DNA from: Sugiyamaella lignohabitans
Lineage: Eukaryota > Ascomycota > Dipodascomycetes > Dipodascales > Trichomonascaceae
Direction of reading: 5' to 3'
DNA length: 64,000 nucleotides
Assembly: GCF_001640025.1 (NCBI RefSeq)
Contig: NC_031672.1
Span: 3,410,001 to 3,474,000, forward strand
The notes under the pieces are model-generated. The model was given only the letters and a program-made list of their open reading frames with translations, did no database searches and had not been told where the DNA came from. Below, one piece after another: positions 2,343-52,683 of the stretch (its first letter is position 1; each line of letters opens with the position of its first letter). The position numbers and the translations under genes were made by a program.

Positions 2343-2714
2343 TTGTGCCTGTTTGTGCTGTGGAGCTTAACTCTAACTTGGATCGTTTTTAAAACACACG
2401 TCCGCTGCACATGCACCGGCTCACAGACGCGCTTCGACACCTGGCGTATCGGCACATGCACCCTGCCCATTAAGCCGTGCGAGCTAGTTTTTCCGAGGGG
2501 ACCCTTTGAGTGTCTCCGGCGGCAGGAGCTCTGTCCCAGAAACCGTGGCTCCTCTCGCTACGCTCGAGTCGGTACGTTCACGGTCTCAGTAATCTACTGC
2601 GAAGCAGGAGTCGCGGGGTCTGGGGCAGAACCCCAGCTGTAGGAGGCAGTCAAGAACCCCTGGGTCGGTGCTAAGAGGCATAAATAGATTTTCGCTAGAT
2701 GGACTATATATAAA
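2343..2714. other. Intergenic region between ERS1 and the ADAM gene
   Basis: It holds the ERS1 upstream region and the 3' flank of the ADAM gene. The only clear structure is a degenerate copy of the GC-rich palindromic repeat. Short open frames here come from the GC-rich repeat and show no conserved protein. Confidence 0.6.
2512..2648. repeat. GC palindromic repeat, degenerate full copy (copy 1)
   Basis: The order is left arm, CTCCTCTCGCT module, spacer, CTGCGAAGCAGGAG module, right arm. Both arms carry mutations: GGCAGGAGCTCTGTCCCAG replaces the usual GGCTGGGGCTCTGCCCCAG, and the right end reads CCCCAGCTGTAGGAGGCA. This looks like an old, decaying copy. Confidence 0.8.
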
Positions 2715-5354
2715 TCAATAGTGGTTCGTGGGTATCGTCGGTGGGGGTCGTGGCATGTAGGTGCCGTCGGCCGAGATGAAGCCACGCGAGTTTGGTAGTG
2801 GTGGAGGTGGAGGTGGTGGAGGACGGTATATTGGCGTCATTTGGTAGGCCGGAGGGGGTTGCATGGGTGGATAGGGTGGTGGTTGTTTTTGTGAGTTGAT
2901 GAGGTTTTGAATTCTTCTTCGGTGCATGAAATGTCGTCGGATCCCTGCGAATAGAATTGACGCCAAAAACAAACCTCCAAGACCAGCGGCAATTCCAATA
3001 ATGACGGCCTGGTGTCGTTGTAGCCATCCTTCTCCGAATGGTGTGATGAAGGTGGGGCCTGAATGACCACTACCACCTACACAGTTTCCTCGTTGACATT
3101 GACCAGTTCCTTGGCATGGTGTGCCATCTAGGAAATTTTGACTGGTAGTGAAACAAGTATTGCCAAATCGTGGATCTACACATGACAATTGACACGAGCT
3201 GTCGTCGGCACATGCTTTCGTCACATTGAGCACACTGCCATCAGAAGTCACTGAACTGTTGCCTAACAATGTCACACACTGCTGGTCTCGTGAGGTACAG
3301 TGGCCAGAAATACACGTTTGGCCAGTCAATCCTGGAGCGTCACACGATTGACCATTAGGAGCACGGACGTTTGGAGGACATGTTGACGAATTGCCGGTAC
3401 AGAACTCAGCTGGATCACAAGACCCCTGTGAAGCTCGGCACAAGGTTGTTGAACTAGCAAATTTACAGTCCTGACAGCACGATTCATTAGCAGGGTCACA
3501 TTGAGAGCCAGCTGTGAACTTACAGGTCAGTGGGTCGCAACATGTATTGTTACCACATCCTTCAGGACCACCACAATCGCACTCCTCACCTTCTTCAACA
3601 ATTCCGTTGCCACATTCGTTGCTAGTAACGAGCTTGACACCAGTGTTGGACGTCAAACATGTCGAGTTTACCGAGTTTCGACCAAGGGCTCCACATACGT
3701 TGCCCTGTGTACACTTGCTAAATGAATCCTGAGACTCTGAAGATACCGGGTTCATCAAGAACTGAGCACCAGCATCACATGAAGAGGCTGATAATGGACA
3801 GCATTGAGAAGTCGCTTCCAGATTCTGTGCACAAGTGTCGCTATCACAGTCATGTACTGCACCATATGAATGGCCCAATTCATGTGCAAGTACTCTCCAA
3901 TCCAGTGACGTACGGGAAATTACGTTAGTTCCAGCTGTGAATGTATTGTTACCGGACTCAGAAGCGGTGCTGACACATGCCATACCGAGCCAGGAAATGC
4001 CAACAATAGACCCCTGAGAGCAAGAAGTCAACAAACTCCAAGTGGCAAGCTGGTCATCCGACCTCTGTCCACGCCATTCTGAAAATAGTGACAGTCTGTT
4101 GCCGATGTTGTTATTCTGTGAAGATGAACAGTTGAAGTTCCAGGCATCTTTAGTTCCTCCTGGATTATCAGGACATCCTTGAGAAATATTTACCATATAC
4201 ACCTGACTCAACCCAAGTGTAATATTGAATGCACTTTCAAAAGCGTGCGATGCAGTATTGACAATATTGATAATATGCGAGTTTGCTTCTGAACTGCTGT
4301 TAAAGCCGGCCAGGAAATTGCAGTCAGCAGCAATTCCCATTAGAGCCACTTCTCTTGGAGACGGACATCCTGCTGTGTCGCCAATGCTATTCTGCAAATT
4401 GGCACCACTAGAGAATCCTGAATTACCACCTGTGTCGTTATTTGTATCCGAATCGTTCGATGCTCTAGGAAATATATTGCTCAACACTCTGTCTCCGAGA
4501 AATCCTTTGGTTTGAAAAGAATCAACATCACGCTTCTGATGGTTGGTTAAACGAGTGAAGTCTTTATCGGACAATGTGAAGGTTCTACTAAGTCGCATAT
4601 CAAAATCTCTCCACACAACCAGACGGCTATCTACTGTATCCAGAAGATCGTACTCCTCATCATACCGGTTTCCCAGTGTCTGCTCCATAGCCTCGAGTCT
4701 GTTTAAATGATAAATAGAACTCGGTACACCCAAACCTTCTTCATCGTCGACTTTCCAAGCCCCTTCAACAATTGGATCAATGCCGTCCTCATGAACCACA
4801 ATTCTAGCCCAGCCAACTGGCCTATACTGATGAATGAGATTTCCCGTAGTGGGTGAGATAAATGCTACTCTTCGATATGCTGTGCCTTTAAAAGCCCTGG
4901 CTTTGGTAGACGAACTATCTTCTACAAAGTCCGGATGGGGGACTATTTTCCCTTGTTCGTCCGTAGTTACTACTTGATGACTAGTAACAGCAGTATTCGG
5001 TTCGAGAACCAGTTTAAATTGTAACACATCCTCGGGCACTTCGGGAGCCCCGCTGACTAGAGACTCATTTCTAGTCAGATAACTGTATAAACCTTCCGAC
5101 TCGAATCCAAAAGCTTGTTCATTTGGATCTGTAATGGCCCACCATCGCCGTCTCAAATTGTGCAAGTGGTTAAGAGATGGAATCTCGACCGTCAGAGTGA
5201 ACGGATCATCAGCAGCGACTCTATGATTATCAGTCTCAATTGATATTCTGCTTACTGAAGACAAGTGTGATAAAGGCCGCAGTCGGTCAACTGAGGTCGA
5301 CAACGCCAAATGAACGGAAATAAATAAACATATCAACGATGCCCAAGAGGGCAT
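2715..5354 (-). CDS. ADAM-family membrane metalloprotease (disintegrin/metalloprotease)
   Basis: Predicted type I membrane zinc protease of the adamalysin family (M12B), 879 residues, single exon. Visible parts in order: signal peptide at residues 1-20; propeptide, with a dibasic KR near 274-275 that a Kex2/furin-type protease could cut; catalytic domain with HELGHSYGAVHD at 491-502 (three zinc histidines, catalytic Glu) and Met-turn FLMNP near 531-535; disintegrin domain from ECGNGIVEEGEECDCG (about 580) to about 665; cysteine-rich region to about 760; one membrane helix near 783-805; and a short cytoplasmic tail with polyproline runs and PPPAY-like motifs. The layout matches the ADAMs of filamentous fungi and S. 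pombe Mde10. Saccharomyces cerevisiae has no ADAM. All catalytic residues are present, so it is probably active. Substrate unknown. Confidence 0.93.
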   Translation of the reverse strand: MPSWASLICLFISVHLALSTSVDRLRPLSHLSSVSRISIETDNHRVAADDPFTLTVEIPSLNHLHNLRRRWWAITDPNEQAFGFESEGLYSYLTRNESLVSGAPEVPEDVLQFKLVLEPNTAVTSHQVVTTDEQGKIVPHPDFVEDSSSTKARAFKGTAYRRVAFISPTTGNLIHQYRPVGWARIVVHEDGIDPIVEGAWKVDDEEGLGVPSSIYHLNRLEAMEQTLGNRYDEEYDLLDTVDSRLVVWRDFDMRLSRTFTLSDKDFTRLTNHQKRDVDSFQTKGFLGDRVLSNIFPRASNDSDTNNDTGGNSGFSSGANLQNSIGDTAGCPSPREVALMGIAADCNFLAGFNSSSEANSHIINIVNTASHAFESAFNITLGLSQVYMVNISQGCPDNPGGTKDAWNFNCSSSQNNNIGNRLSLFSEWRGQRSDDQLATWSLLTSCSQGSIVGISWLGMACVSTASESGNNTFTAGTNVISRTSLDWRVLAHELGHSYGAVHDCDSDTCAQNLEATSQCCPLSASSCDAGAQFLMNPVSSESQDSFSKCTQGNVCGALGRNSVNSTCLTSNTGVKLVTSNECGNGIVEEGEECDCGGPEGCGNNTCCDPLTCKFTAGSQCDPANESCCQDCKFASSTTLCRASQGSCDPAEFCTGNSSTCPPNVRAPNGQSCDAPGLTGQTCISGHCTSRDQQCVTLLGNSSVTSDGSVLNVTKACADDSSCQLSCVDPRFGNTCFTTSQNFLDGTPCQGTGQCQRGNCVGGSGHSGPTFITPFGEGWLQRHQAVIIGIAAGLGGLFLASILFAGIRRHFMHRRRIQNLINSQKQPPPYPPMQPPPAYQMTPIYRPPPPPPPPLPNSRGFISADGTYMPRPPPTIPTNHY

Positions 5355-5873
5355 TTTGAAAGATGGTTGATAGTGATGTGATGTCGAATGATAGAAACTC
5401 CGAACTAAGTTTCAAAAATAAATGACGGAGTAAATAACAATAAATAGCTCACTCTACCCCAGACGGGTCATAAGCAGAGTTTATGGATAAATATGGAGAT
5501 GGAACTTTGGCGTACCAGATTTCGCCTCTTCGCTTACCAAAGCGGAAACACTTGAAATTTGAACTCACAACAAACAAACCTTTGCCAGATCAAACTCGTA
5601 AAATATAATCAAGACACAATTCTCATGCAATATAGTCCAATTGCCAATTTCCAATTTCCGGCTTCTGAAAAAATACTTCAGTTGCCAATACACCAGCAAA
5701 TTGAATGGTGACTTAGTCAAAAGCACCAATGCGGATTGAGAGAGAAATGTAGTAGATCTACCACTTGTAAGAAGTCGTTGCAATGAAGAATCTGTCGTGG
5801 TTATCAAAATGCTTTAAACACCCACTGTAAGTTCTAATAAAATGCCCGAACCAATACAACCCAATACCGGAGA

Positions 5874-5894
5874 ACACACACACACACACACACA
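5874..5894. repeat. (CA)n microsatellite
   Basis: An uninterrupted AC/CA dinucleotide run of about 21 nt in the intergenic region. Confidence 0.9.
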
Positions 5895-6764
5895 AAAATC
5901 CTCTCAAAGTATGATCCGGCCCGCAATCTAATAAACAACTTTTTGCCGTATAAACCTATTTATTTATACCCTAAAATTATGGTAAAGGTTGGTAAACCTA
6001 AATTTAACGGTTGAAGCAGATCCGATCGAAATTGGGTTTCAAATTAGATCACTAAATCTTGAATCTCGTATACGGCGGTCACAACCCGATAAAACGACAA
6101 TTCAACGCACAAAGACTGATACAAGCAACGGAGATACTAGCGGTTTAGTAAAAATCTAGATCAAGTCCGTTGTTGATATTTCAGAGAACAGTTCCTATTA
6201 CGGAACGATGCAGGGAGGGGCCAAGAGTGTGCAGCGGAGGGGCAGCCAGTCTCTTGAGGGGAGGATGGGCATGAGGCACAGCAGCATGGAAACCTTGGCG
6301 CTGACGAAGGAATCTGTAACCGCAGTGGGTGTGAATAATCCGGTGGCTCTTGGCTTGGATGAGTAATTGTAGAAACTTCCGGACTAAACAGCCACAATTC
6401 CGCAACCTGGCATTTCCGACATTTGAATCGACAGATTCACTAGCCCTGCTGGAGCCCGCCCCGCCTCAAAAAACCCCGAGCGTGGCTGAGTTAACCTCAG
6501 CCCGCATGACAGCGCCAATTCAGGGTCCGAAATGGCAGTCGATCGTTTCCATACGAACAGTGACGCAATGGACCGATTAGTAGCGGACTTGTCCTGTACG
6601 AGCGACCCCGCCAAGACCACACTGGGCAGTGACCGACACACGACAGCTGCATCGCTAGATATCCAAATGCAGGCTACAACGGCCGACTGACACCCTCTGT
6701 TTCAAATCCAAGCCAAGAAACAAACCCTTTTTCACGGGTTTGGTCATTGGGTGGGTCGGGGGTG

Positions 6765-6901
6765 TGCCTCCGGCGGCTGGGGCTCCGCCCCAGACCCTGG
6801 TTGTGCTCCGCTTCGCGGAGCGGCTGGGACCGTGGCGGTCCGACTCGAGCGGAGCGAGAGGAGCTGCGGGGTCTGGGGCGGAGCCCCAGCCGCCGGAGGC
6901 A
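6765..6901. repeat. GC palindromic repeat, full copy (copy 2)
   Basis: Perfect outer arms, TGCCTCCGGCGGC on the left and GCCGCCGGAGGCA on the right, each followed or preceded by the CTGGGGC-TCC-GCCCCAG hairpin. Inside are a GCTCCGC-TTC-GCGGAGC hairpin on the left and an inverted CTCGAGCGGAGCGAG module on the right. Confidence 0.92.
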
Positions 6902-7207
6902 GTCCTCCGACTGCCCCTCATCTGTCTCGTTCGAATCAATTGTGTATGTTGAGAGACGCCGCACAGACCGCGCATGCCGCTGTCCGATAAGATAAGGCGT
7001 CGGTCGGTACCATAACTGGCTGGATTGAAACCATCAGGCTTGTAAGCACGCTGTGTGTTCTTGATTGGATATATTAAAGAAGGTGGTATCGGGCATATCT
7101 GGTGTTTTGGAAGTGTACATTCTTTTGTAGTTAGCTCGGTTTTGTTGTTGCTACGCTTGTTTTGTTCGATAGACGTTCTCTATGGCTTGAGCTAGCTATT
7201 CACAGCA

Positions 7208-8656: not shown

Positions 8657-9209
8657 TGGCCATTTATTTATTATATTTATTTTATTGGTTGGAGAATATC
8701 TGGTATTTTTGGGAGACTCCCCGTTCTGCCTCCGGCGGCTGGGGCTCTGCCCCAGACCCCGTGGTGCTCGCTTCGCGAGCAGCGACTGTTGGTCCTGTTG
8801 AGTTTATATTTCGCTATTTTAGTACTTCTAAAGTCATACAGCTTCAATTTTGTCGATTGGGGAGAAATTTTATAAGCAGTGGATCTGCGTGGCTATAGTT
8901 ATCACACATCTCTTTTAGGTGGATACTGTGATTTTCAATTAAATAAAGTTAAAAAACGTTGAACCCCACCATGCAGCCTTCCTAAATTAAACAGATGCGT
9001 ATCGCTTGACAGAGATCGACATAGTTTATCTTCTGCCTTCCCAAATTAGCAAGTGGATAGCGAAGTTTCATTCATAACTGTATAATATTAATATATATAC
9101 ATATACATATTTCTCATCCAAATTTCATAACGTGAATATTCAAAACATAATCTCAACTTAGTAACGTACAACAATTCATAAAACAAAAATCTGCTTAGAC
9201 TGCAAACTT
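8657..9209. other. Convergent intergenic region between VPS62 and the sugar transporter
   Basis: It holds the 3' flanks of both genes, a half GC palindromic repeat at 8727-8781 and AT-rich sequence with ATATACAT repeats near 9100. No gene seen. Confidence 0.6.
8727..8781. repeat. GC palindromic repeat, half copy (copy 3)
   Basis: A single left arm: TGCCTCCGGCGGC, the GGGGCTCTGCCCC hairpin, CAGACCCCGTGG, then the TGCTCGC-TTC-GCGAGCA hairpin. No inverted right arm follows within several hundred bases. Confidence 0.88.
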
Positions 9210-10890: not shown

Positions 10891-12600
10891 GATCTAGCAA
10901 TTTGATAAAAGTTGTAACCTACTCAGATGCATCAGATCAGATGGGAACAGGTAATCTCCATGCCGATCTCGAGATGCGTGGGGGAGAAGGTGCGGGGTAT
11001 AGGGTGGGGCAAAGGAAGACGTGGAGGGGCAAAAACAGTACCTACTGTTACCGTTGGCAAAAAAAAAAAAACTACTACTACGACAACCCCACTAGTGCCA
11101 ATATCGTTTTAGTGATAGTTGTTTAAATCCTTGCTTAACAGTTTGTATAGCCGTTTAATACCTGGCTAATTTTCCATGGTGCCGATATCATCGGTGGGGC
11201 TGAGGGGTAATATGAGATCATCCGACCACTCTGGAAGAAATAAATGTCTCAGAATTTAACAACGAGCTTTTCTACCCTATTAGCGATCGTACAAGAATCC
11301 CTCAACCATTGGTTTTGTGGACATTGTCTTAGTCTCATGCGGGGTGCTATGGGCTACCATCATAGAAGCTGATAGCGAATCTTCAGGGATGGTTGATGAT
11401 CAAAATACACTTTTCCAAGGTTTAGGATACTGCCTTGGCCGATATGTGGAAATCTTGTCCCACGGCCCATAAGTGGACTACCCCCTCCTTTTTTCGCTAG
11501 GCCCCCCGCCTGTGTTTCTCATTTTTTTACTAGCCCCCCACGGCCGTGTGATATAAGCAGGCTGTTCTAGTACTGGGGGTTGCAGGTTGCAGTGAACGAA
11601 CACTATCCTGCATGTGCCCCCACGAATCGACCTCAGTTCGACCTGAGAGCCTATAGTCAGTAAACACTGAGACATTATGATATTACCACCATGAGTTTTG
11701 ACTACGTGCATCATTCGAGGGAGGGTACCAAAGTGGGGTTTTGTCGAAGCAAACTGGTTCAGACCTGGTAACTTGACAGCCTGTGTTAGTTCATGTTTGA
11801 CATCTGAGATTGTTCTCTCTATTGACTGCTATCAATAGCATCTAAATAGTTTGCTGTTTACTAGAATTTGTTTACTTATTTAATGTATAATAGTTAGTTA
11901 AAAAAATTGACTCATATCATCACCGGGTTCCGGCCGTTGGTTGATCTGAGATCCTCTGGATCAATAAGCTGGTATAGTTTTTCCATGGATGAGATGGCGG
12001 AAAAATCATCGCCCCCTCTGCACTATTGAAGTGTAACTACGTTATCGATGGCTTCCCCACTTTCCTCGGCGAGGTAATTGGAATGGGCCTACGGATAATA
12101 ATGTATGGATCTGCACCTAGATATAGCGGTCGGATTCCTGTGATGGTTTTGAAACGTGGGAATCAAATCGTGGGGGGCACTTTAACTAAGGGGGTAGGCC
12201 TTCAACCTTTGAACGTCTATGACGCGTAGCTGCTTAAAACTTGATGGTTACACTGTAGATCGGCATCGGCTTTGAGTATGGTCCGTTGAAATCATTGGAC
12301 TTTTGAAAAATGGGGGGGTCAATGATTTCGATAAAATAGATATTTTTGATAGAAATAGATAAAGTCGATATATATCACACGACCAAGCTTTTATACGCTT
12401 TGAACTTTGTTTATGTGAAATTTATTTTTGATTTTAATTTTGTATTTTTGCATTTACATTTAGTAAATCTACAAATTAGCAATGGTACGAAATTTTATTG
12501 TCAGGAATTAAGCCGAATAGCTGAGCACTCTATGAATATCCTCCTGAATGATGGATTGGTTATATTGTTAGTAAGGTTGTTATCGTTCTCATTGATGAAA

Positions 12601-12837
12601 TCTATTGTGACGTTTAAATTTCACTGGTCTCGTCTATGGGATTATTCTTGGTCTATGATTTACGATAACATTGATAAAATCTATTATGACGTTTAAATTT
12701 CACTGGTCTTATCTATGGGATTATTCTTTGTTTATGATTTACGATAATATTGATAAAATCTATTGTGACGTTTAAATTTTATTGGTCTTGTTTATGGGAC
12801 TATTCTTTGTTCATGATTCACGATAACATTGATAAAT
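12601..12837. repeat. 79-bp tandem repeat, three units
   Basis: Three direct units start at 12601, 12680 and 12759. Each begins TCTATTRTGACGTTTAAATT and ends near CATTGATAAAA. The units differ by only a few substitutions, so the duplication is fairly recent. No conserved protein is encoded. Confidence 0.88.
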
Positions 12838-31583: not shown

Positions 31584-31638
31584 TGCCTCCGGCGGCTGGG
31601 GCGCTGCCCCAGGCCCCGTTGCTCCTGCTTCGCAGGAG
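31584..31638. repeat. GC palindromic repeat, half copy (copy 4)
   Basis: A single left arm: TGCCTCCGGCGGC, the CTGGGGC-GCT-GCCCCAG hairpin, then the GCTCCTGC-TTC-GCAGGAG hairpin. The loop variant GCT replaces the commoner TCC. It lies about 130 bp upstream of the MED12 start codon. Confidence 0.88.
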
Positions 31639-32980
31639 TTCTTTCGACTCCCAGAGAATCGGAAACTCTTTTTACAGTTCGGGTTCATTGAGTTCTTTCG
31701 ATGTCTGCCGCTGCTATTTTTCATCTCGCCGAGAGGGATTCTGATGTATCAACCAAAAATATCAACATATGTATCAACCAAATACCAAAAATGTAAATAT
31801 CTGCGAGTAATCTAGAGCCCTCATACAATCTTTTGTAAAATATTTCCAGTCGTTTTGCCCTTAGATTGGCATTCAAATCCCCAACAGCTCGAATCTTAGA
31901 TGTCGAGATTGGTGTCATAACCCCCGAACCTTCACCGGTGACTGATAAGGAGACCAAACAGCCAGATCAATTTTGAATTTCCGAGTCAACACGTAGCTGT
32001 CAGAGCTATCTATCCACCAGTTACCTACCTTTAGTAGCCATTTCTCTTAGTTTTGATCTATACAAAATACCACTAGTAACTTTCCAGCCAACCTACAGTA
32101 CCGACCGTCTCCTGTTCAATGATTCTTTATTGAAAAGTCCGCGATATCTCGTTAGATCTTGCTGTCTACTAATGTTCTATTTCCTGTTGTTCAAAATCCA
32201 AAGATCTATTTTCTTAGTTTATCGTTGTCTTATGTCCTTAGACTGATTCCGGATTTCCTAGCTTTTGACAATCTCTCCAACTAGACTACTTCTCATCAGT
32301 ATTAGTGCATATCATATCTGTACTTCGCTGCTCTCTCTTCGGTGGTACGTAAGGCTGGTGAGCGCCGATCGCGCATAACAGATATCACCGCCCATCCAAC
32401 CCGATCTAGCAACCCCACCATAACTATAATGGAACGGCTACTTTCTCCGCCTGCGGTCACCGGACTAATCGGGTGGGGGTACTTCCTGACCACCAGGAGA
32501 ATCAGTCTGACTTAGAAGAAATGGGTCTAGAATTATTCAAGAAATGGGCTGAGTCAGAACGGGTTTTCTAAGTTATTTCGCTAGGAATAGTATCCAGCCA
32601 GGTTTATTTCTGACGACAAGAGACGGGGTTGTGTGATCAGTGTAGTGTGGCTGTGGTCAGGCTAATATGGCTGTGCGCGTACGAGCTGAGCTGGTAGTAA
32701 AGTTTGTATTAGTGGATTTGATCGAATGATGATGTGAAAATTCTATATATATGTATATATATTTATAGGCTGGATGGGTATGCTAGATTGGGGATTGTAA
32801 GAAGAGTTGGGTGTTTCAGGAGGATTATAAAAGAGGGTCATATATCTAAAATGTCTTTTGACAGTCTGATTCACCTTAGTCCTGAGGTAAAGATTAGACT
32901 AATTGTCAAACTAATAACGAATATAAAGATACCAACTTAATTTATGTCTGAAATCGGTGAATTCCAACAAGTTGTCATTA

Positions 32981-33270
32981 ACGGACATATCATGTCAGTG
33001 AACGAGCATGTCGTGTCAGTGAACGGACATATCATGTCAGTGAACGGGCATGTCATGTTAGTGAACGGGCATGTCGTGTCAGTGAACGGACATATCATGT
33101 CAGTGAACGGGCATGTCATGTCAGTGAACGGACATATCATGTCAGTGAACGAGCATGTCGTGTCAGTGAACGGACATGTCGTGTCAGTGAACGGACATAT
33201 CATGTCAGTGATCAGAGACATATCATGTCAGTGATCAGAGACATATCATGTCAGTGAACGAGCATGTATG
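32981..33270. repeat. 21-bp minisatellite, about 13 units
   Basis: Direct repeats of 21 bp with consensus RRRCATRTCRTGTCAGTGAAC. About eleven units are 21 bp and the last two are 23 bp (GTGATCAGAGACATATCATGTCA type). Variation alternates between GGACATATCATG and GRGCATGTCGTG, which suggests amplification of a two-unit block. Because 21 is divisible by three, both strands stay open through the array (heptads such as MSVNGHV on plus), but no start context or homology supports a gene. Confidence 0.93.
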
Positions 33271-34818: not shown

Positions 34819-34834
34819 CTGTCTTTCTCACGAA

Positions 34835-34972
34835 GCCTCCGGCGGCTGGGGCTCCGCCCCAGACCCCGTGGCTCCTGCTTCGCAGGAGATGGCTGGCACC
34901 GTCGGTGAAACGACTCGAGCGCAGCGAGAGGAGCTACCAGGGTCTGGGGCGGAGCCCCAGCCGCCGGAGGCA
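34835..34972. repeat. GC palindromic repeat, full copy (copy 5)
   Basis: Left arm with the GCTCCTGC-TTC-GCAGGAG module, a spacer of about 25 nt, then the inverted CTCGAGCGCAGCGAGAGGAG module and the right arm ending GCCGCCGGAGGCA. The outermost base of the left arm is A rather than T. Confidence 0.93.
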
Positions 34973-35025: not shown

Positions 35026-37998
<2,973 letters not shown>

Positions 37999-38158: not shown

Positions 38159-38243
38159 AACAACGCGCCTCGAGACCGTCTCCAATTCTCCTACCACTGG
38201 AACCCAATTGTGCTACAACGGGTGCTCCAGCTGAGGTGGTTGC

Positions 38244-38382
38244 GCCTCCGGCGGCTGGGGCTCCGCCCCAGACCCTGGTTGCTCCTGCTTCGCAGGAGAT
38301 TGCCGCCACCGGTGATTAAACGACTCGAGCGCAGCGAGAGGAGCTACCAGGGTCTGGGGCGGAGCCCCAGCCGCCGGAGGCA
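38244..38382. repeat. GC palindromic repeat, full copy (copy 6)
   Basis: Same order as copy 5: left arm, GCTCCTGC-TTC-GCAGGAG, spacer, inverted CTCGAGCGCAGCGAG module, right arm. The arms match perfectly through CTGGGGC-TCC-GCCCCAG and its inverse. Confidence 0.93.
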
Positions 38383-38493: not shown

Positions 38494-38560
38494 TGCCTCC
38501 GGCGGCTGGGGCTCCGCCCCAGACCCTGGTTGCTCCTCTCGCTGCGCTCGAGTCGTTGCG
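38494..38560. repeat. GC palindromic repeat, half copy (copy 7)
   Basis: Left arm followed by the GCTCCTCTCGCTGCGCTCGAG module and TCGTTGCGTTCGCG. The right half is missing. Confidence 0.88.
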
Positions 38561-38718
38561 TTCGCGAAAGGGCACATTTTTTTCTTCCGCTAGGTTATGG
38601 GTTGATAATCTCAGGGCCGAGGAGATAAGAGCACCCGACACCAAACCCCGGCTCGAAGCCTGATTGGCTGCTTCTACCGCCCCAAACAAATCGAATGCCA
38701 CGGGCGAACGGTCCCGCC

Positions 38719-38773
38719 TGCTCGCGGAGCGAGCACAACAGGGTCTGGGGCAGCGCCCCAGCCGCCGGAGGCA
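38719..38773. repeat. GC palindromic repeat, half copy, inverted (copy 8)
   Basis: Only the right arm is present: TGCTCGC-GGA-GCGAGCA hairpin, ACAGGGTCTGGGG, the loop variant GGGGC-AGC-GCCCC, then GCCGCCGGAGGCA. Confidence 0.88.
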
Positions 38774-38950: not shown

Positions 38951-39099
38951 TGCCTCCGGCAGCTGGGGCTCCACTTCAAACCCTGATTGCCCCTGGTTCG
39001 CAGAAGTTTTCCGGGTCAAGAGGGCACCCCTAGTAACGACTCGAGCGAAGCGAGAGGAGCAACCAGGGTCTGGGGCGGAGCCCCAGCCGCCGGAGGCAT
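38951..39099. repeat. GC palindromic repeat, full copy with decayed left arm (copy 9)
   Basis: The left arm has point changes (GGCAGCTGGGGCTCCACTTCAAACC), while the right arm is intact (GGGTCTGGGGCGGAGCCCCAG and GCCGCCGGAGGCA). The central spacer is longer than in other copies. Confidence 0.88.
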
Positions 39100-40948: not shown

Positions 40949-41088
40949 TGCCTCCGGCGGCTGGGGCTCCGCCCCAGACCCCACTGCTCCTCTCGCTCCG
41001 CTCGAGTCGTTACGTCACGAACCCCCGTGAAACTCCTGCGAAGCAGGAGCAACCAGGGTCTGGGGCGGAGCCCCAGCCGCCGGAGGCA
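40949..41088. repeat. GC palindromic repeat, full copy (copy 10)
   Basis: Module order is opposite to copies 5 and 6: left arm, GCTCCTCTCGCTCCGCTCGAG, spacer, CTCCTGC-GAA-GCAGGAG, right arm. This is the same asymmetric element in the other orientation. Confidence 0.93.
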
Positions 41089-41212: not shown

Positions 41213-41270
41213 TGCCTCCGGCGGCTGGGGCTCTGCCCCAGACCCCGTGGCTCCTCTCGCTCCGCTCGAG
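41213..41270. repeat. GC palindromic repeat, half copy (copy 11)
   Basis: Left arm with the loop variant GGGGC-TCT-GCCCC, then CAGACCCCGTGGCTCCTCTC and the CGCTCCGCTCGAG module. It stops at the spacer. Confidence 0.88.
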
Positions 41271-42412
41271 TTGGGTTCCGGAGAAATTGGTCGAGTGTCG
41301 AGTGAGGGGTGACTGGTCTTTTCGGGGTGGCTGGTGTGTTTTTAGATTGGGTCGGGTGGTGGTGACTGATGGTATCGCGCTAAGGCTGTAAACAGCAAAC
41401 TCAGGGGTATGCAGCATGGCGAATGGCGTCAATCGTTTTTACTGCGGGTGTTGCGAGCTGGCCGTGATTCATGTGACTGGTTTCATGTTTCCACAGGGGT
41501 TTATTGGACGTAGGTTCCGTGATGAGATTGAGCTTGTTTTGGACTGATGATCCTGGCACGAAGTGCTCTCATAACACCGTTATTTAAGGGATTTCGTACT
41601 GTGCTTGAAGACTCGTGACGGTCAGTTAGGGCCGATGCAGCACTTTGTCGCCAATAAGTGTGAGCTGGGCTATTGATTGGTGTCCAGCTTTCTTTTTGGA
41701 TTTGACCCAAGGTATGGAAGCTATTTATTAATTAACTTACATTATTGAACAATATGTATATTTGAATTGACTTATATTTCCGACCACTTTCACTCGCAGC
41801 TGTTACCATCCTACTGCACAAAAAATAACTCAGTGTATGAAGAAGAGTCAATAATCTTCTTTTTCATTTCTAGTTCATGGTCATAAATGAATTGTGAGTG
41901 TGCTTATTAGAGTTGAAAAGCAAACTTGTTTTGTTTCAGACCAATTCACTGCAATTTTTATAGTGTGCTTCTTATATAGTAGTTTGGTACATGGTACATA
42001 AAGCATCTTACTTCCATTTGCCCCACTATCTACATATGAAAAATAATATCTCGGTTTTTAAATTATTATTATTATTATTTGCTACGCTGAATAGCTAGTT
42101 CGGGCTATTGAAATTATAACTGTCAAAAGGTTTAATTTTTTATTTTCGCAAAAACTCATTTACTCAGCTCCGTAGTCTGTTACCGAGTTATCGCGGACTT
42201 GATGCTGCAGACTTGAAGTTCTTCTCGCACTTCATGCCGCAGTACCATGAGGTGGCTTGTAACGACAAAAACCGACAATATTGGCTTGGTGGCCTTTTTA
42301 TGAGATTATGACCAAAATATCAATATTCACGAAGAGGATATTTGAGAGATAGAAAAATTATAAAATCATTTTATTTTTCATTTCATATATTCATTATCCA
42401 GCCGAATATTTA

Positions 42413-42894: not shown

Positions 42895-43865
42895 ATGGAC
42901 GACAACATGACGACATCGGAGTACTCCGAATATTCAGGTAAGCAAGATCAAACCCACACCGTCTGTCAGATCTCGGATACTTGTCTCGTCTCGTCGTTTC
43001 CCAATAACAGTCGAGGTCGTTCCGTCTCAGATCACGAACCCCACACAGAGATCCCGCGGAGCCATACTCCCCCAAGCCCCGACTCGAGCGAAGCGAGAGG
43101 AGCCACGGGGTCTGGGGCGGAGCCCCAGCCGCCGGAGGCACATCTGTCTATCCATAGAACAAGAACTAACACTGAACAGAAGATTTGTGGATCGACTGGT
43201 TTCTAGGATCGAAAGGAAACGAGTATTTCTGCGATATTGATAATGATTTCATCACAGACAGGTTTAATTTAACGGGCCTGAATACAGAGGTTGACCGGTT
43301 ACAGGAGTCGATTGACATTATCACCGACAACTTTTCGCGATCGGTGGACGATGACGAGCGCGATAGAATAGAAAAGGTGGCCGAGCATTTGTATGGACTG
43401 GTGCATGCTAGATATATCCTAACTACGCGAGGACTACAAAAGATGTTGGAGAAGTACAAGAATTGTGATTTTGGCCGCTGTCCTCGTGTGCACTGTCATT
43501 TACATGCTTTGCTTCCTATTGGTTTGCACGACATGCCCCGTCAGTCCACAGTCAAACTGTACTGTCCCAAGTGTGAAGATATATATAACCCAAAATCGTC
43601 GCGCCACTCGTCGATTGACGGTGCCTATTTCGGTTCCAGCTTCCCCGGCATGCTTTTCCAAGTCTACCCACAACTGGCTCCTAGCAAGTCGTCGGAGAGA
43701 TACGTGCCCAAGATCTTCGGGTTTAAAATCCACGAAAGCGCCAAACTTGCTCGATGGCAGGACAAGCAGCGAATGCTCATGGAGGAACGTCTCAAGGACG
43801 ACAGTTCCACCCACAACCCCACAAACACTACTAACAATAACGGGAGTGTCACCAAAACGACCTAG
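42895..43865 (+). CDS. CKB2: Casein kinase 2 regulatory (beta) subunit
   Basis: Regulatory dimer of the CK2 holoenzyme. Two exons, 42895-42937 and 43180-43865, give 242 residues. Exon 1 encodes MDDNMTTSEYSEYS; splicing joins it to EDLWIDWFLGSKGNEYFCDI, the universal CK2 beta start. The 242-nt intron uses donor GTAAGC and CTAAC before AG at 43179, and holds a half GC repeat. Other family blocks: the acidic loop SVDDDERDRIEKVAE, LYGLVHARYILTTRG, DFGRCPRVHC and LYCPKCEDIY (four zinc cysteines), PKSSRHSSIDGAYFG, and a C-terminal disordered tail rich in Thr and Asn. There is no long acidic insert, so it looks more like CKB2 than CKB1; that choice is tentative. Confidence 0.93.
43081..43140. repeat. 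GC palindromic repeat, half copy inside the casein kinase intron (copy 12)
   Basis: Only the right half is present: GACTCGAGCGAAGCGAGAGG, AGCCACGGGGTCTGGGGCGG, AGCCCCAG, then GCCGCCGGAGGCA. It lies between the donor at 42938 and the branch point at about 43165, leaving both splice signals intact. Confidence 0.92.
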
Positions 43866-44004: not shown

Positions 44005-44128
44005 TGCCTCCGGCGGCTGGGGCTCCGCCCCAGACCCTGGTTGCTCCTGCTTCGCAGGAGTCTCGTGGGGACCCCGACGAAACGACTGAGCGTAGCCGAG
44101 TTGGGGCAGAGCCCAGCCGCCGGAGGCA
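44005..44128. repeat. GC palindromic repeat, full copy, slightly shortened (copy 13)
   Basis: The left arm and GCTCCTGC-TTC-GCAGGAG module are intact. The right half is mutated and has lost about 13 bp (GACTGAGCGTAGCCGAGTTG, then GGGGCAGAGCCCAG), ending GCCGCCGGAGGCA. Confidence 0.9.
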
Positions 44129-44353: not shown

Positions 44354-44418
44354 AGATCTGAGATCTGAGATCTCAGCAGGATCTTCTTTTCTGCAGCATG
44401 ATAAATATAAATACCCCT
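44354..44418 (+). promoter_or_regulatory. Promoter of the TerD-domain gene: dyad, TATA, STRE-like site
   Basis: AGATCTGAGATCTGAGATCT starts at 44354 and includes the 12-nt palindrome CTGAGATCTCAG at 44365-44376. TATAAATA lies at 44406-44413, followed directly by CCCCT (STRE core) at 44414-44418, 62-74 bp before the start codon. The dyad could bind a dimeric regulator. Confidence 0.45.
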
Positions 44419-44479
44419 GAAATTGACTGTTCTGTACTTGTGAGAGGACAATAGAGTTTACGTATTCAGAAAGGCAGCA

Positions 44480-46588: not shown

Positions 46589-46650
46589 CCCTAACTATCG
46601 CATATGCTATTTATTTAACGAAACGCATCTCCTGTCTATGACCAGCTGCA

Positions 46651-46766
46651 TCCCAGATCCCGCTGCACGTCTCGCTACGCTCGAGTCGTTCCGTCGACGG
46701 TCCCAGCAATCTCCTGCGAAGCAGGAGCCACGGGGGTCTGGGGCAGAGCCCCAGCCGCCGGAGGCA
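46651..46766. repeat. GC palindromic repeat, left-truncated copy (copy 14)
   Basis: It starts inside the left arm at CCCAGATCCCGCTGC, followed by the CTCGCTACGCTCGAG module, spacer, CTCCTGC-GAA-GCAGGAG and an intact right arm. The outer TGCCTCC and left hairpin are gone. Confidence 0.9.
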
Positions 46767-46781
46767 CACAGACCACTCCCA

Positions 46782-46919
46782 TGTCTCCGGCTGCTGGGCC
46801 CTGCCCCAGACCCCACTGTTCCTCTCGCTTCGCTCGAGTCGTTTCATCGAAGGATCCCAGCACTCTTCTGCGAAGCAGGAGCCACGGGGTCTGGGGCAGC
46901 GCCCCAGCCGCCGGAGGCA
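46782..46919. repeat. GC palindromic repeat, full copy (copy 15)
   Basis: The left arm is slightly mutated (TGTCTCCGGCTGCTGGGCCC). Then come CTCTCGCTTCGCTCGAG, spacer, CTGCGAAGCAGGAG and a right arm with loop variant GGGGC-AGC-GCCCC. It has the same orientation as copy 14, 15 bp away. Confidence 0.9.
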
Positions 46920-46974
46920 GCACGGGCCAGACACAGGTCGTTTCCAGAGTGTACATTACAATATAGATGACTAT

Positions 46975-48468
46975 TTACTTGGCAACACCGAACTGTTGGG
47001 CGATATGGGCACCGAAGAGCTCGAGGGCCTTTTCTAGTTTATCAGCAGGGACCGATGCGAATGTGCCTCTGAAATAAATAGCGTTCTTTTCGTCGACGGT
47101 TTCGGCGAGTTCTTTTTGAGGGGGGTTGGTCTTGTCGTTGACGAGGAACCAGTGGCCGGGGACCAGCTGGACGCCGAATTTCAATCCCTCTTCGTAGAGG
47201 TAGTTCTCGATAGCAACGGCATCGTTGTTGAACTCGGCATACTTAGGGTGCTTGCGGGCATCGAGCTTGATCCAGAAGAACATACCGGCATCGGGGGCAA
47301 TGAAATCAATCACCTCCTTGGGAACATACTTCTCAATGGCATCTACAGCCACATCACGCTTGTGCGAGTAGGCCTTACGAAGACCAATGAGCCAGTCAAG
47401 GTATCCCTCTTGGCCCCATCTTTGCAAGAGACCATTGACAATGGCTTGTGAGAAACCACTGGCAACTTGAATCGACACCTCGTGCAAACGCAGGTATCTC
47501 TCGACAAATGCCTCTTGAGCGACAATCCATCCAATACGGGTACCAGGGGCAATGACCTTGGAAAACGAGTCAAGACGGATAACTCTTCCGTCAGTATCGA
47601 CTTCAAGGTAAGAAGACACCAGGGTCTTCAGGAAGTCTTCATGCGAAATGTGTTCATAATCCTTCTTACGTTGCTCGGGATCCTTGGTGTATTCGGGCAT
47701 TTGCAAAAAGTAGTAAGGTTCATCCTCAACAATAAGGAAATCGTGCTTTTGAGCAATCTTGTAAATAGCCTCACGACGTTCACGAGAAAGAGTGCTACCA
47801 GTGGGGTTTTGACCAGTAGGGATCGTGTAAAGAAGCTTGGGCTTAGGGCCAACCCACTCGTCCAATTGCTTGTCTAATTGAACGGGGTCAATACCATTGA
47901 GATCCATCTTGACAGGGACAATATTAACACCCAAACCGTGAACACACTCGGCAGCAGACGAGAAAGTGAACTGTTCAGCGAGAATAGTATCACCACGGTT
48001 GGTGAAAGTACGTAAAGTAGAGTCCCAACCTTGGGTATTACCAACAGTCAGAATGACCTGCCAGTTCTTGTAGGCAACGTCATGAACAATCTCAGTGTGC
48101 TTGGTGATGAAATCCAACAACTGAGGTGCTCCGTTGGAGTGTCCATATTGCAAAGCAGTATTCAAGAAGATGTCATCGTACTTTCCAGTAACAGCCTTGG
48201 TGACATGGACATTAGTAGTCTCCTCGGCGCTGGTAGGAGCAGCATCATTTCCTTTAGCAAAAGGAGGAGCAGGTGATTCGATAGAAAGGTTGTCAAATGG
48301 GAACATGGTTGGCACTGGCAAACCACCACCGAGAGAAATAATCTTGGGATCATGGAAATGCTTGAATGCCTCCTTCAAAGCCGAAGGGTTTCTGCCCTTG
48401 GCCTCCTCAGAAAAGTGGTGTCTAAGATCTTGAGCCAAAGGCTTGGAAGAAGCGTCTGTAGCAGTCAT
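46975..48468 (-). CDS. ARO8: Aromatic amino acid aminotransferase I (Aro8 type)
   Basis: PLP-dependent class I aminotransferase of 497 residues (yeast Aro8: 500). It acts in phenylalanine and tyrosine synthesis or breakdown and, in yeasts, can use 2-aminoadipate in the lysine pathway. Motifs: KIISLGGGLPVPTMFPF near residue 42, LQYGHSNGAPQL near 106, TVGNTQGWDS near 141 (phosphate-binding turn), YTIPTGQNPTGSTLS near 214, VEDEPYYFLQM near 247 (PLP-contacting Asp and Tyr), and DSFSKVIAPGTRIGW near 300 with the Schiff-base lysine at about 304. A region around residues 70-90 is low-complexity. No mitochondrial presequence is evident, so it is probably cytosolic. The 3' end faces that of the TerD gene. 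Confidence 0.93.
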   Translation of the reverse strand: MTATDASSKPLAQDLRHHFSEEAKGRNPSALKEAFKHFHDPKIISLGGGLPVPTMFPFDNLSIESPAPPFAKGNDAAPTSAEETTNVHVTKAVTGKYDDIFLNTALQYGHSNGAPQLLDFITKHTEIVHDVAYKNWQVILTVGNTQGWDSTLRTFTNRGDTILAEQFTFSSAAECVHGLGVNIVPVKMDLNGIDPVQLDKQLDEWVGPKPKLLYTIPTGQNPTGSTLSRERREAIYKIAQKHDFLIVEDEPYYFLQMPEYTKDPEQRKKDYEHISHEDFLKTLVSSYLEVDTDGRVIRLDSFSKVIAPGTRIGWIVAQEAFVERYLRLHEVSIQVASGFSQAIVNGLLQRWGQEGYLDWLIGLRKAYSHKRDVAVDAIEKYVPKEVIDFIAPDAGMFFWIKLDARKHPKYAEFNNDAVAIENYLYEEGLKFGVQLVPGHWFLVNDKTNPPQKELAETVDEKNAIYFRGTFASVPADKLEKALELFGAHIAQQFGVAK

Positions 48469-50750
48469 TTTTTAAAAACTTCAAAAAATTTTCAGAATTT
48501 TTCAGTACTTTTGGATTTAGTTCTTGTACAAGACGAGGTTTTCGGTTTTTTTTTTCAGTTGATTCGACTAATTTGGATTATATTTATTAGATCCAATAAG
48601 GTGTCGTTGTTTCTGATGCCAACAGTTTTAATCTGATCCAAAAAAGAAAACAATCCGACTTAGACTCTCTTCACCACTGTTATATAGCTTATGGCCTATA
48701 CCAGATTTATTTATCTAAAGGTTGTTAGTCAGAAATATTAATCGTGCATAGAACGGCTACATCTGCCGTCGAGATGGTGCTTCCGATGGCTAAGATAGCG
48801 CCATATTCCGACATCGGCACCCGAAAGTGAATGAGTAATGTTTTATGACTTTATCCGGGCCCTAGCCCTGGAAAACGGTCTTACGGCTTATCACCACATC
48901 AATCACCGCGTCCGATAGCGTTTGGGGTTGGCTGGGTAGCTGGGTCGATATTTGGTCTGATTGTTGGTCTGATAGTTGGCTGATAATTGACTGGCTAGTT
49001 TGCTGGATACTTCACTGGTTTGAAAAGGAAGTCAATAATTACAGTAGCAGATCATCACAGTAGAAACCGAGATTTCTTGAGAGTGATTTGATAGAGAGAT
49101 TTGATCTTTTCTGGTCGTCGGTCGTCTGAATCAAAGATGCGGAATGCCCGATCCAATCCGCTAATGCCCAACACTACCATCCCCATTTCGAACTGTAATT
49201 GCCAGAACCGACAAAACGACCCCGTCTTTTGCCAAGCCGATATTCAGTGACATAGGAACATGAATATTCTACAGGAATAAATATCACACATCACATGAAT
49301 ACTATCAACAGCATGGATAGCACGAATCACACAAATCACCCGGTACTTACTGTATATTAAACAATATCAACACTAAAGTCACTTATCACTAGTCACTATT
49401 TGTAGTAGTAATAGTAGTAGTATCTACAGTAGAGATATTATCAGGTCAAGGCGGAAATTGACGGCACTTTATAGTTGATAGGATGCAATGCATTGATGAA
49501 CTCCCAACCCCGACAACAGTAATACAGTCGATCCAGACAACATCAGTAACTGTATCTCGTAGCATCGTTCGCTCTCAGTATCTCTACACTGATGGAAATT
49601 CCGTGCGGGGTCAGCAAAACGACGAGGGTCGAGCCACGAGCCCACCAAATTAGACTTTCGTGCTCTCCGAACATACTCCCTTGTACCTGCAGTTATCCTA
49701 CTTCATCCTACTAACAACCAACTGAGCAATGAATACCTGAGCCAGCTGACTTCTCGTCTCTCAAAGCAGATCTCAATATAACCTGAGAAGCAAATACACT
49801 GAAGAACTAAACTGGCCAAAGTAACAACTCACTGGTGGTTGGTATCTTTTAACGATAACCCTGTAATATTGGCAAACTCGGTAGTCCAGTCAACCCCCAG
49901 CTGCTCAGCAGTGACTCAGTTCTCGTTCAGCTCTTATCAGTTATCAGCCCTCACATACTACCCCTCTCCCCCTGAGTACCTATCGATAGATAAGAGACTC
50001 GCAATCTGCTTTCTCCCGCTAGAAAAATATGCCCTGAGTCAGACATCTCAGCGTATTTGTTCGGTTATCAGCGGCCGTATCACACAAAAACTGGCCCGGG
50101 TTAGGTGACTTGGCACGACAAAACCACCTTCCCCTGCCTGTCAGCTAAAGGTAACCCACAGCGCCGCCTTCATCCAGCGGAGCTCCACGCGAATACACCT
50201 CCGGCTGCAACTCCGTTTCAGCTCTGACACCCCTAATCTCCCCCGGTCCCATATCCTTCTCAGAATCCAAATCCAACTGACCCAGTTCCAGCCAGTCTAA
50301 ATCCTTCTCTGTCCAACCCGGTCCATCCTGGACCCGTGCCGGCCCAACATCCTAACCGTACTCTCTCCTCCAAAACCCCAGCTTGTGCCATTCGCGACAA
50401 CCCTCCTCTACCCCAAGCACGACTCATCCGATCACTGTCGGGCGGTCCGACGCGTAATTTCAGCAGCTCGATCGCCGTCAAACGCGCTTGTCAGGGTCTA
50501 ACACGATTCCGCCAACCTGCCTCCGGCGGCTGGGGCTCCGCCCCAGACCTTGGTTGTGCTCGCTTCGCGAGCATTCCGTGGAGAACAGTCTGTAGGGACC
50601 CCATCGCCGCTCGCGAAGCGAGCACAACCAGGGTCTGGGGCGGAGCCCCAGCCGCCGGAGGCAGGACCCGAAAGAAGAGCATGTCAGTGTTTAAATAGTA
50701 ATAAATAAGAGGGTCGGTTGTTCGTTATCTTCGTTAGAAATCGTAATAAA
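48469..50750. other. 2.3-kb region between ARO8 and CDH1 without a gene
   Basis: It holds the ARO8 upstream region (TATATAA on the minus strand near 48682), a degenerate TGGTCTGAT/TGGCTGAT tandem stretch at about 48925-49020, a TAG/TAGTAA run near 49405 and one full GC repeat at 50518-50663. A frame at 49839-50108 has no recognisable protein. Confidence 0.55.
50518..50663. repeat. GC palindromic repeat, full symmetric copy (copy 16)
   Basis: Both arms carry the TGCTCGC-TTC-GCGAGCA module (inverted on the right), so this copy is a near-perfect long inverted repeat about a spacer of roughly 35 nt. In most other full copies the two halves carry different modules. Confidence 0.94.
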
Positions 50751-52683
50751 TTATCGCAGTTGCTGGAACACATCTAGCAGCGACGAGTTCAGGCGTGTGT
50801 TGGCCCTGTTGTCGTCGAAGATGTTCCAGAACCGCAGTGTCTCGTCGCCAGCACCGGTCACGATAGTTTTGCCGTCGGGACTCAGTGCCAGGTACAGAAC
50901 TCGGTAGGTATGGCCCGTCAGTGCAGCGACCTGTTGCATCGACGGGTATTTCCAGATCATGATTTGGTTTTGCGAGAATCCGTGTGTTGACACAATCTCG
51001 TTCGAGTTCTTACTCCATGCCAGGTTACACACTTGACTGCCTGTATCTATCTCGTTCAGTAATGATCCAGTCTGGGTATTCCAGAACCGGATTTTTCTAT
51101 CGGCAGTACCTCCTCCACTGGCTAGTAATCCTCGTTGGTGCGGACTCCAGGAAATCGCTTTAATTGCTGCTTCATGTGCTTGGAATTTATGTAGTGGTTC
51201 AGTGTTCAATCCGTCCCATACCATCAGCTTATTATCGTTTCCTCCACTAGCAAGTAGGTTTTCCTCGACATTCCACCTTAATCCACACACTTCTTGTCGA
51301 TGTCCACTGAGTCTTGTCACATAATGGTCTGCTACCCTCACATCGCGGTGCAGAATCGTTCTATCTTGGCTTCCTGATGTCAGAATATGTTCATTCCACG
51401 ACAATGCACTAGCTCTCGCTAGATGGCCCGTCATTTTACGAATCCGTTTACAATTCTGAGTATCCCAGATCTGTACTGCGCCCGAACTCGTGCCCACTGC
51501 CAGGTGCGGTCCATGGGTTATCCATGATAACGAGGTGATTCGCTCGTCGTTCAGTGTACACAGACTATCGACCTGTCCACTTTGTGCATTCCACAGATAA
51601 ACAGAGCTTCCTAGACCGACTCCAAGCACATTTGTAGACCCCCAGTCGACCAAATTCAGGTAGAAATCGTCTGCCAAATCCGGCGCATCCAGTACTTTAT
51701 ACGGCACTTTGGACACTGGACGAGGTTGTTTTCTCGGCGATAACAGCAGTCTCTGCGAATCCATTCGCACTGGCGAAACCGAATAGATCTCATGCGAGCT
51801 ATTGGCTGTAAGGTTTCTTCGAGAAGGAGATGACGATGGCGAAGTATGATCTGATGCCAGACCACCAAACAGTCTATCCACGGGTCTATGAACCCCTCCT
51901 GTGGTCTGAACCCCTCCACCTGCCCGACTGCCCCTAGACGGCGATTTATAGTGAAACATATTCTTATTTGGAGTCGCTGGTTCGGATCTGGACGATGCTT
52001 GTGGCGGCGACGTCGTCTTACCACCTCCTAACATCGACTCATCTCCACCACCCATCCCCGACGCGCTTCCAGAACCCACCGTCGACGGCACCGCCGACGG
52101 CACATCATTACCAAACAGCTCCGCTTTGAGCAACGTCGAAAATGTGCGATTGGCCTCTTCCACTACACATTTCTGTTAGTCCAGTTGAATCTCGGTGGTG
52201 AGGACATCCCTCCGGCGGCTGGGGCTGCGCCCCAGACCCCGCTGCTCCTCTCGCTCCGCTCGAGTCGTTCCGTTGACGGTCCCAGCAAACTCCTGCGAAG
52301 CAGGAGCCACGGGGTCTGGGGCGCAGCCCCAGCCGCCGGAGGCACACGGTCACCCCCAGTATCTGCTTACCTCGCTGGTAGTCGAGCTCGCTGGTGGCCG
52401 GGCGTCGCGTCTTTTTTTCCGATTCGTCTTCGCCTGCCAGGCTGAACGCTGCTTGGAGATTGATCCCGCTACGGTTCGGGATGTACCGGTCTCCGTAGAT
52501 TATTCGTCGTTTTTGTGGTGAGCCTGTTGGTGACGACGATGTTGTGGTGATTGGTCGTCGAGGGAGGTTGATTCCGTCGCTGTCGAGGTGTACTTTGCGA
52601 CCGTTGATTCGCACCGGGGTTGGTGACCCCGGTGTTGGCGGAATGTTCGAGCTCGACAGATCCGTGTCTTCGTCATTGCTCAT
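50751..52683 (-). CDS. CDH1: Cdh1/Hct1 (fizzy-related), activator of the anaphase-promoting complex
   Basis: WD40 co-activator that brings substrates to APC/C in late mitosis and G1. Two exons, 52683-52371 and 52162-50751, give 574 residues (yeast Cdh1: 566). The intron (208 nt) has GTAAGC and GGACTAAC before AG at 52163, joining ELDYQR to VEEANRTFSTLLKAELFG; it contains a complete GC repeat. The C-box is DRYIPNR at about 65-71. The N-terminal region has many SP/TP sites for Cdk control. Then come KVPYKVLDAPDLADDFYLNL, typical of Cdh1 rather than Cdc20, and seven WD repeats. The C-terminus ends QLR, the IR-type tail that docks on Cdc27/Cdc16. Confidence 0.94.
52208..52344. repeat. GC palindromic repeat, full copy inside the CDH1 intron (copy 17)
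   Basis: Left arm with GGGGC-TGC-GCCCC and right arm with GGGGC-GCA-GCCCC; these variant loops are exact complements, so the two arms match each other rather than the family consensus. The inner modules are CTCTCGCTCCGCTCGAG and CTCCTGC-GAA-GCAGGAG. It fills about two thirds of the 208-nt intron. Confidence 0.94.

Follow-up and report, generated by a model that had tools for sequence, protein, structure and literature searches.

The nuclear genome of the yeast Sugiyamaella lignohabitans carries a dispersed family of short, GC-rich palindromic elements, described here from a 64,000-nucleotide window (bases 3,410,001–3,474,000 of contig 1, NC_031672.1, in a genome of 15,932,016 bases on four contigs of 2.3–5.9 Mb). 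With a probability of roughly 0.55, we read them as selfish non-coding hairpin repeats that are built, and behave, like bacterial REPINs, i.e. doublets of repetitive extragenic palindromic (REP) sequences that form hairpins. The elements have a fixed outer end and two hairpins, occur both singly and as inverted pairs, lie outside genes or in introns, show no detectable target-site duplication, and number in the thousands. The spread of REP-like palindromes has been tied to Y1 transposases or left unexplained, and how such tiny palindromes multiply now becomes testable in a eukaryote. What is new is a nuclear family of thousands, with no detected duplication or known transposase and with an end shared with bacterial repeats; as a kind, it is a REPIN-like palindrome, and passages of earlier work report REP-like palindromes from bacteria and organelles (PMC3116915, PMC3733652, PMC2670323). 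The literature searched, which took in few subscription papers and no preprints and left the genome paper (Bellasio et al. 2016) outside, contained no description of the yeast family or of its bacterial counterparts.

The unit of the family is an arm, which, read inward, consists of TGCCTCCGGCGGC, a TGGGGC-NNN-GCCCCA hairpin, the motif GACCC, a short spacer and a second hairpin of one of three main types: A (CTCCTGC-TTC-GCAGGAG), B (CTCCTCTCGCTTCGCTCGAGTCG) or C (GTGCTCGCTTCGCGAGCA). Arms occur alone or as inverted pairs, mostly of ~138 bp. An earlier note on the window had described ends joined to a CTGGGGC-NNN-GCCCCAG hairpin, and this holds well beyond it: across the 100 arms of a contiguous 264-kb sample (C1:3310001-3574000, the window and its neighbours), 576 of 600 stem pairs in the first hairpin are Watson–Crick, 11 are G-T and 13 are unpaired. 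Among 136 unique arms, what remained of 142 ends once two lying too near a sequence end and four duplicates had been removed, 117 have a perfect GGGGC-NNN-GCCCC, with 10 different loop triplets. The A hairpin, compared in 45 arms, retains 293 of 315 pairs unchanged, with 19 broken and three changed on both sides yet still pairing.

Most full copies are an A arm, a core and an inverted B arm, ~138 bp in all. Among 37 unique pairs the arm types combine non-randomly (AB 24, BC 6, BB 4, CC 3, AA 0, AC 0), which identifies A-core-B as a unit. Arms resemble each other more within a pair (0.939) than across pairs (0.925; none of 5,000 permutations as high), a likeness that could also come from common descent of subfamilies. 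The four BB pairs span 173–241 bp and a few others reach up to 213 bp; no shared middle sequence was seen in them by eye. Single arms retain the outer end, and most stop soon after the second hairpin, while hardly any second hairpin lacks a nearby outer end (none of 35 matches of type A, one of 48 of type B and three of 15 of type C). Two full copies were folded and each gave one long hairpin (window 52207–52344 as DNA, z −11.1; window 40949–41088 as RNA, z −14.3). In the 264-kb sample, paired arms are better conserved than single ones (mean 1.19 versus 1.88 mismatches, p = 0.035). One further arm, at C1:3506329 (reverse complement), carries a ~20-bp internal tandem duplication around the first hairpin, as if slippage had replicated the hairpin twice.

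Counted across the whole genome, as the earlier note had proposed, the family proves to be spread over all four contigs. The exact 13-mer of the end occurs 2,918 times in forward and 2,889 times in reverse orientation (5,807 in total; reversed control 0), and the 33-bp end matches 6,400 sites at ≤3 mismatches. Facing exact 12-bp ends lie 122–152 bp apart in 1,198 pairs (reversed control 0), at least one copy being counted twice. The 100 arms of the 264-kb sample, 84 of them with ≤3 mismatches, form 74 elements, 26 pairs and 48 singles, the status of each being set by our calling rule; the elements make up 2.6% of the sampled DNA when 60 bp are counted per single arm. Scaling from this sample, we estimate roughly 7,600 arms at 5,600 loci in the genome. 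Copies were also present in five of seven further 8-kb pieces drawn from all four contigs. The 40 best-scored copies, on all four contigs, are 96–99% identical to a 138-nt query, and the spread therefore looks recent. Occurrence on four contigs and in introns between open exons rules out a vector or assembly artefact, and collections of plasmids and phages gave no BLAST match to the same query. The description of the copies as dispersed, palindromic, non-coding and nuclear thus stands, on the strength of all four contigs and of the introns of yeast genes; the single arms, which account for six of the 17 window copies, the several types of second hairpin, the intronic position of the copy at 52207–52344 and the genome-wide spread had been overlooked, and the bacterial REPIN, the closest design, had not been considered.

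Target sites and likeness to known repeat families

Miniature inverted-repeat transposable elements (MITEs) are small and non-coding, with terminal inverted repeats and a target-site duplication. The yeast elements share the small size, the lack of coding capacity, the inverted ends, the copy number in the thousands and an intergenic or intronic position, and to that extent the earlier description of them as MITE-like was apt; the duplication, however, was not found. Around the 37 unique pairs (38 rows), 2-bp matches number 3 against 2.4 expected and 4-bp matches 1 against 0.2 expected, and there are no matches of 5–9 bp. For the 81 rows of arms without a partner within ~160 nt, among them some duplicate loci and arms belonging to long pairs, 6–8-bp matches between the outer flank and the inner end number 8 against 5.4 expected in shuffled pairings, a slight excess. 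It is therefore unlikely that the family is an ordinary set of MITEs derived from a DNA transposon, with target-site duplications that have decayed or measure 0–1 bp: direct repeats of 5–9 bp are absent and shorter ones are in no clear excess, though the elements are often nearly intact, and 48 of the 74 loci are one-ended single arms, which a cut-and-paste transposase acting on two ends does not predict. Nor is a transposase partner known for the family.

The likeness to REPINs and REP sequences goes further. As set out in sections of the REPIN literature, these too are short extragenic palindromic units, found singly or as inverted doublets that form long hairpins; the doublets are better conserved than the singles, copy number is high, and coding capacity is lacking (PMC3116915, PMC3733652, PMC8266576). 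The yeast family differs from them in being nuclear, in having at least two hairpins per unit, in ending with TGCCTCCGGCGGC, and in that no Y1/RAYT transposase was detected for it. The tags GTAG and CGTC are absent from the 33 conserved end positions of the yeast arm; CGTC does occur, both in the core and just inside some B arms, not at a fixed end.

Placement relative to genes, introns and strand composition

The earlier claim that the elements never occur in coding exons withstood inspection, in that no exon was shown to be interrupted and overlaps with open reading frames (ORFs) trace to introns or to ORFs that are likely spurious. Inside ORFs of at least 150 codons lie 16 of the 100 arms. 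One long ORF, which we take to be an SPT6-like gene, holds its element in an intron. Eight arm-containing ORFs of at least 150 codons were dropped from the gene models before placement and skew were counted, and Pfam gave no match for any of the eight. The ORF at window 52108–52683 turns out to be exon 1 of a gene of the CDC20/Fizzy type, extended past its splice site into the intron; splicing at 52370 and 52163 yields a 574-codon open frame, with the copy at 52207–52344 inside the intron. The other seven, which are partly translated element, are likely spurious.

Elements are concentrated near gene 3′ ends: of 73 elements, 21.9% have such an end no more than 150 bp away, against 8.7% of random intergenic positions (as high in none of 2,000 draws), while the same gene models of the 264-kb sample show no excess at 5′ ends. 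An element follows within 400 bp downstream in 30 of 82 gene models, and most gene ends are without one. Composition around the copies is also patterned. The 12 nt just outside each end are G-rich (42% G), and beyond them, over the next 40–350 bp, 89 of 100 flanks are rich in C on the strand of the arm (mean skew −0.154), neighbouring flanks overlapping in part and hence not all being independent. The result is a local switch in GC skew centred on the elements (C1:3310001-3574000), which reaches into coding sequence (skew −0.151 with an element ≤400 bp downstream, n = 30, versus 0.003 without, n = 52; p = 2.5e−5). Decayed arms are not the source of the flanking skew, which persists after masking with a profile hidden Markov model. 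Flanks of different copies share no homology beyond the overlaps of neighbouring flanks; the exceptions are one inverted match and one 85% match between the two flanks of a single copy. The palindromic identity of flanks beyond composition is weak (2 of 38 at 6–7 bp, against 0.19 and 0.08 expected).

A function under selection, as bidirectional terminators, insulators or structures in mRNA 3′ regions, would fit the enrichment within 150–300 bp of gene 3′ ends, the very stable hairpins formed by the two folded copies, and the terminator-like A-rich and T-rich flanks of many related bacterial copies inspected in an Acetobacteraceae genome (see below). Yet copies are intronic as well, many are single or decayed, their density varies strongly from place to place along the chromosome, and only those 30 of 82 gene models have one close downstream, so that we hold this explanation, too, to be improbable.

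An organellar source is less probable still. The earlier note had compared the copies with the GC clusters of yeast mitochondrial DNA, and passages on those clusters describe units that are likewise GC-rich, palindromic, mobile and merging, although they measure 18–48 nt, lie between AG or ACT direct repeats and have printed sequences unlike the yeast element (PMC4478555). The comparison stands for the general form; AG or ACT direct repeats are absent from the ends of the 37 unique nuclear pairs. A precedent for movement into the nucleus comes from Volvox carteri, whose organelle palindromes are described, in the portions of the report available to us, as selfish, short, intergenic and intronic, with some copies in nuclear DNA; these differ in being organellar, of ~50 nt, with short AT loops, and their nuclear copies are rare and held to be inert (PMC2670323). 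The yeast elements occupy ~2.6% of the sampled nuclear DNA, against ~0.06% in Volvox by the same source (PMC2670323). Because they are so abundant, lack the AG/ACT repeats and keep their stems well conserved, they do not resemble inert relics. Judged on the four contigs, among which no mitochondrial genome was apparent, an origin from GC clusters of this yeast's mitochondrial DNA is very unlikely.

Introns house a share of the family. Ten intron candidates were considered, of which eight were spliced; in five of these, frames of 25 codons or more stay open to either side, and in three they do not. Under stricter rules the 264-kb sample holds 15 candidate introns, five of them with an arm; two further supported introns hold three copies, and one more lies in the window. 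By translation, the hosts presumably include genes for a myosin, a PP2C phosphatase, a TatD-like nuclease and an SPT6-like protein. That the element might be an introner, creating introns as it inserts, is highly improbable in spite of these cases, since the eight supported introns account for only about 9 of the 74 elements and since splice sites fall outside the element at varying distances, meaning that it brings none of its own.

Bacterial counterparts and the means of spread

A scan of 84,980 prokaryote species genomes (the number given in the collection's description) for CTCCGGCGGC TGGGGC NNN GCCCCAGA returned four loci, three in Desulfovibrionaceae and one in an Acetobacteraceae metagenome-assembled genome (MAG), H1_MAG_00044 (hereafter G003). 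In the four genomes, G001, G002, G003 and G004, GCCTCCGGCGGC is repeated, with 318, 135, 416 and 132 copies respectively (reversed controls 1, 7, 19 and 8). Since these genomes were chosen by their likeness to the yeast arm, only copy numbers and layout count as independent evidence. In G001, G002 and G003 the copies inspected form inverted pairs and single arms, with GCCTCCGGCGGC, a hairpin, GACCCC, a variable core and the inverse. Some bacterial arms have GAATCCC with another stem in place of GACCCC. Inverted pairs measure 89–125 bp among the Acetobacteraceae copies inspected and 144–345 bp among those of Desulfovibrionaceae. The G003 and yeast arms are the same apart from three points: the loop, the base before GCC and, in most cases, a G003 stem longer by one pair. 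The base before GCC is T in yeast, and 13 of 17 Solidesulfovibrio arms have T there as well. Runs rich in A and in T border many of the Acetobacteraceae copies inspected, much as in intrinsic terminators. The GCCTCCGGCGGC-ended repeats of H1_MAG_00044 and of Solidesulfovibrio/Desulfovibrionaceae share with the yeast family the 12-bp end, the hairpin, GAC(C)CC and the occurrence both as inverted pairs and as single arms, and differ in their variable core and purine-rich outer flanks, with the stem itself varying in Desulfovibrionaceae; no second hairpin of the TTCG type was seen in the bacterial copies inspected.

The distribution in bacteria is patchy. In a sample of 150 genomes of its family, the 18-mer at ≤1 mismatch is found 415 times in G003 and 0–4 times in each of the other 149; among 299 sampled Pseudomonadota, only G003 (434 matches, some arms twice) and one stray match elsewhere were recovered, and among 198 Desulfobacterota the 12-mer is in strong excess in three (318, 97 and 76). 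Within the genus of G003, at least three genomes that these samples had missed (G655, G656 and G664) have 80–82% matches to the element, which is hence not confined to a single genome. At one G003 locus, conserved blocks stand 178 bp apart, element included, while in four relatives the same blocks are separated by 15–20 bp; at this locus, then, the element differs between species of the genus. In a fifth relative, G661 (L092, between 2736 and 2800), the gap is 63 bp and holds a different hairpin, of the CGCCTTTGGC...GCCAAAGGCG type, so that one and the same site seems to take in palindromes that are unrelated to each other.

Viral contigs of the IMG/VR collection supplied a further comparison. 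The 18-mer occurs in 22 stretches, of which seven are inverted pairs (full elements), two are single arms with a hairpin and 13 are without a hairpin; the last look like chance matches. The 12-mer with hairpin and GAC is present in 13 stretches (12 contigs), and the variants with TCC changed to TTC, GCC or ACC in 0, 0 and 1, the background frequency of the words lying outside this comparison. The near absence of the variants speaks for one particular family and against stable hairpins of any kind, and it makes a general physical convergence on any GCC(NNN)GGC end less likely, although it is no proof of common descent. Two IMG/VR contigs (L060 and L062), AT-richer in composition, carry lone GCCTCCGGCGGCTGGGGC arms with hairpins that look like terminators.

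The common 12-bp end, hairpin and GAC motif mark a recurrent kind of element, and the motif shared with bacteria may mean that the family entered yeast from them. More tentatively, and with considerable doubt, one may suppose a single selfish hairpin lineage (the GCCTCCGGCGGC end, hairpin and GACCC) that crossed between bacteria and the yeast nucleus and was amplified to thousands of copies without a dedicated transposase, through the universal machinery of replication or repair; if true, it would be a REPIN-like mobile element working in both domains of life. Either a minimal selfish element has passed from one domain to another, or some strong rule drives unrelated genomes to one sequence and so to the shared end, and either answer would be new as far as the literature searched shows.

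As to mechanism, an arm or inverted pair would fold in single-stranded form, from DNA or from its RNA, before being copied or joined into a new site beside a G-rich run. Either an enzyme recognising the ends of the hairpin or the host's own repair and template switching would do the joining; the full A-B unit would be one such spreading unit. We infer both the single-stranded step and the enzyme. An excerpt of the REPIN work proposes Y1 transposases as the movers of REPINs (PMC3116915). For the yeast family we favour spread of a hairpin-forming strand by some other activity, or by host repair and template switching, because no Y1 transposase was detected in yeast or G003, and none near the repeats elsewhere.

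Several observations weigh against the reading of the family as REPIN-like selfish repeats. The transposase searches, made with PF01797 and PF14214 only, gave 0 matches to Y1_Tnp (PF01797) in the yeast genome, with the control giving a signal in 5 of 14, and 0 to Helitron_like_N (PF14214), whose control was silent, so that this second negative carries no information. In the bacterial genomes G001, G002, G003 and G004, PF01797 matched 2, 2, 0 and 2 times, so that the closest likeness, G003, a draft MAG, is also without a Y1 match; near the Y1 loci of the other three, the 12-mer was found at 0 of 6. Insertion itself is something we infer rather than see in empty sites of a related yeast. Single arms could be deletion derivatives of full copies, the difference in conservation between singles and pairs is modest at p = 0.035, and the proposed model does not anticipate the strong strand asymmetry of the flanks.

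Copies and other features of the window

A search for the 13-bp end at ≤2 mismatches gave 26 sites in the window against 0.53 expected from shuffling. Together with reading, it recovered every one of the 17 copies listed in the earlier note: 11 full or nearly full copies (124–148 bp) and six single arms (55–64 bp). Their mean GC content is 0.71 against 0.44 for the window, in agreement with the claim that they are far richer in GC than their surroundings.

Six of the full copies combine A and B arms: 34834–34972 and 38243–38382 (both A + B), 40949–41088 and 52207–52344 (both B + A, the two that were folded), 38951–39098 (A arm decayed) and 46782–46919 (B arm decayed, followed by A). The copy at 2511–2648 consists of a B arm, core and A arm with decayed ends, that at 6765–6901 of a C2 arm, core and B arm, and that at 50518–50663 of two C arms. 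The nearly full copy at 44005–44128 has an A arm and a decayed right arm, and the copy at 46630–46766 has a badly decayed left arm and an A arm on the right. Single arms of B type lie at 38494–38557 (+), 41213–41272 (+) and 43078–43140 (−), one of A type at 31584–31638 (+), and two of C type at 38715–38773 (−) and 8727–8782 (+), the inner end of the latter being placed at the end of the second hairpin. The predicted intron of the CDC20/Fizzy-type gene that holds the copy at 52207–52344 runs from 52163 to 52370 on the minus strand (GTAAGC ... CTAACAGAAATGTGTAG), on the evidence of the splicing described above.

Between 34.8 and 52.4 kb lie 13 of the 17 copies, not 14 as first counted. The clustering is borne out in that the copies are uneven within the window under a uniform model (p = 0.0005, in a test chosen after seeing the data). 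The empty stretches to which the note drew attention are not special: the 264-kb sample is over-dispersed as a whole (variance/mean 2.31), with 6 of its 27 10-kb bins empty.

No Rfam family reaches its gathering threshold in the window, whose genes are of kinds ordinary for a yeast, with Pfam assignments such as Nup120, Med12, MCM6 and a CDC20/Fizzy WD40 protein; for one window protein, Blastobotrys, Trichomonascus and Magnusiomyces stand high among the named relatives listed. An ADAM-like ORF at 2715–5354 (−) has M12B reprolysin and disintegrin domains by Pfam; ADAM-like proteins are unusual in yeasts. Two tandem arrays were also seen, one of a 79-bp unit present three times at 12591–12836, with copies 89–92% identical to the first, and one of about fifteen 21-bp units at 32938–33252, possibly a coding repeat.

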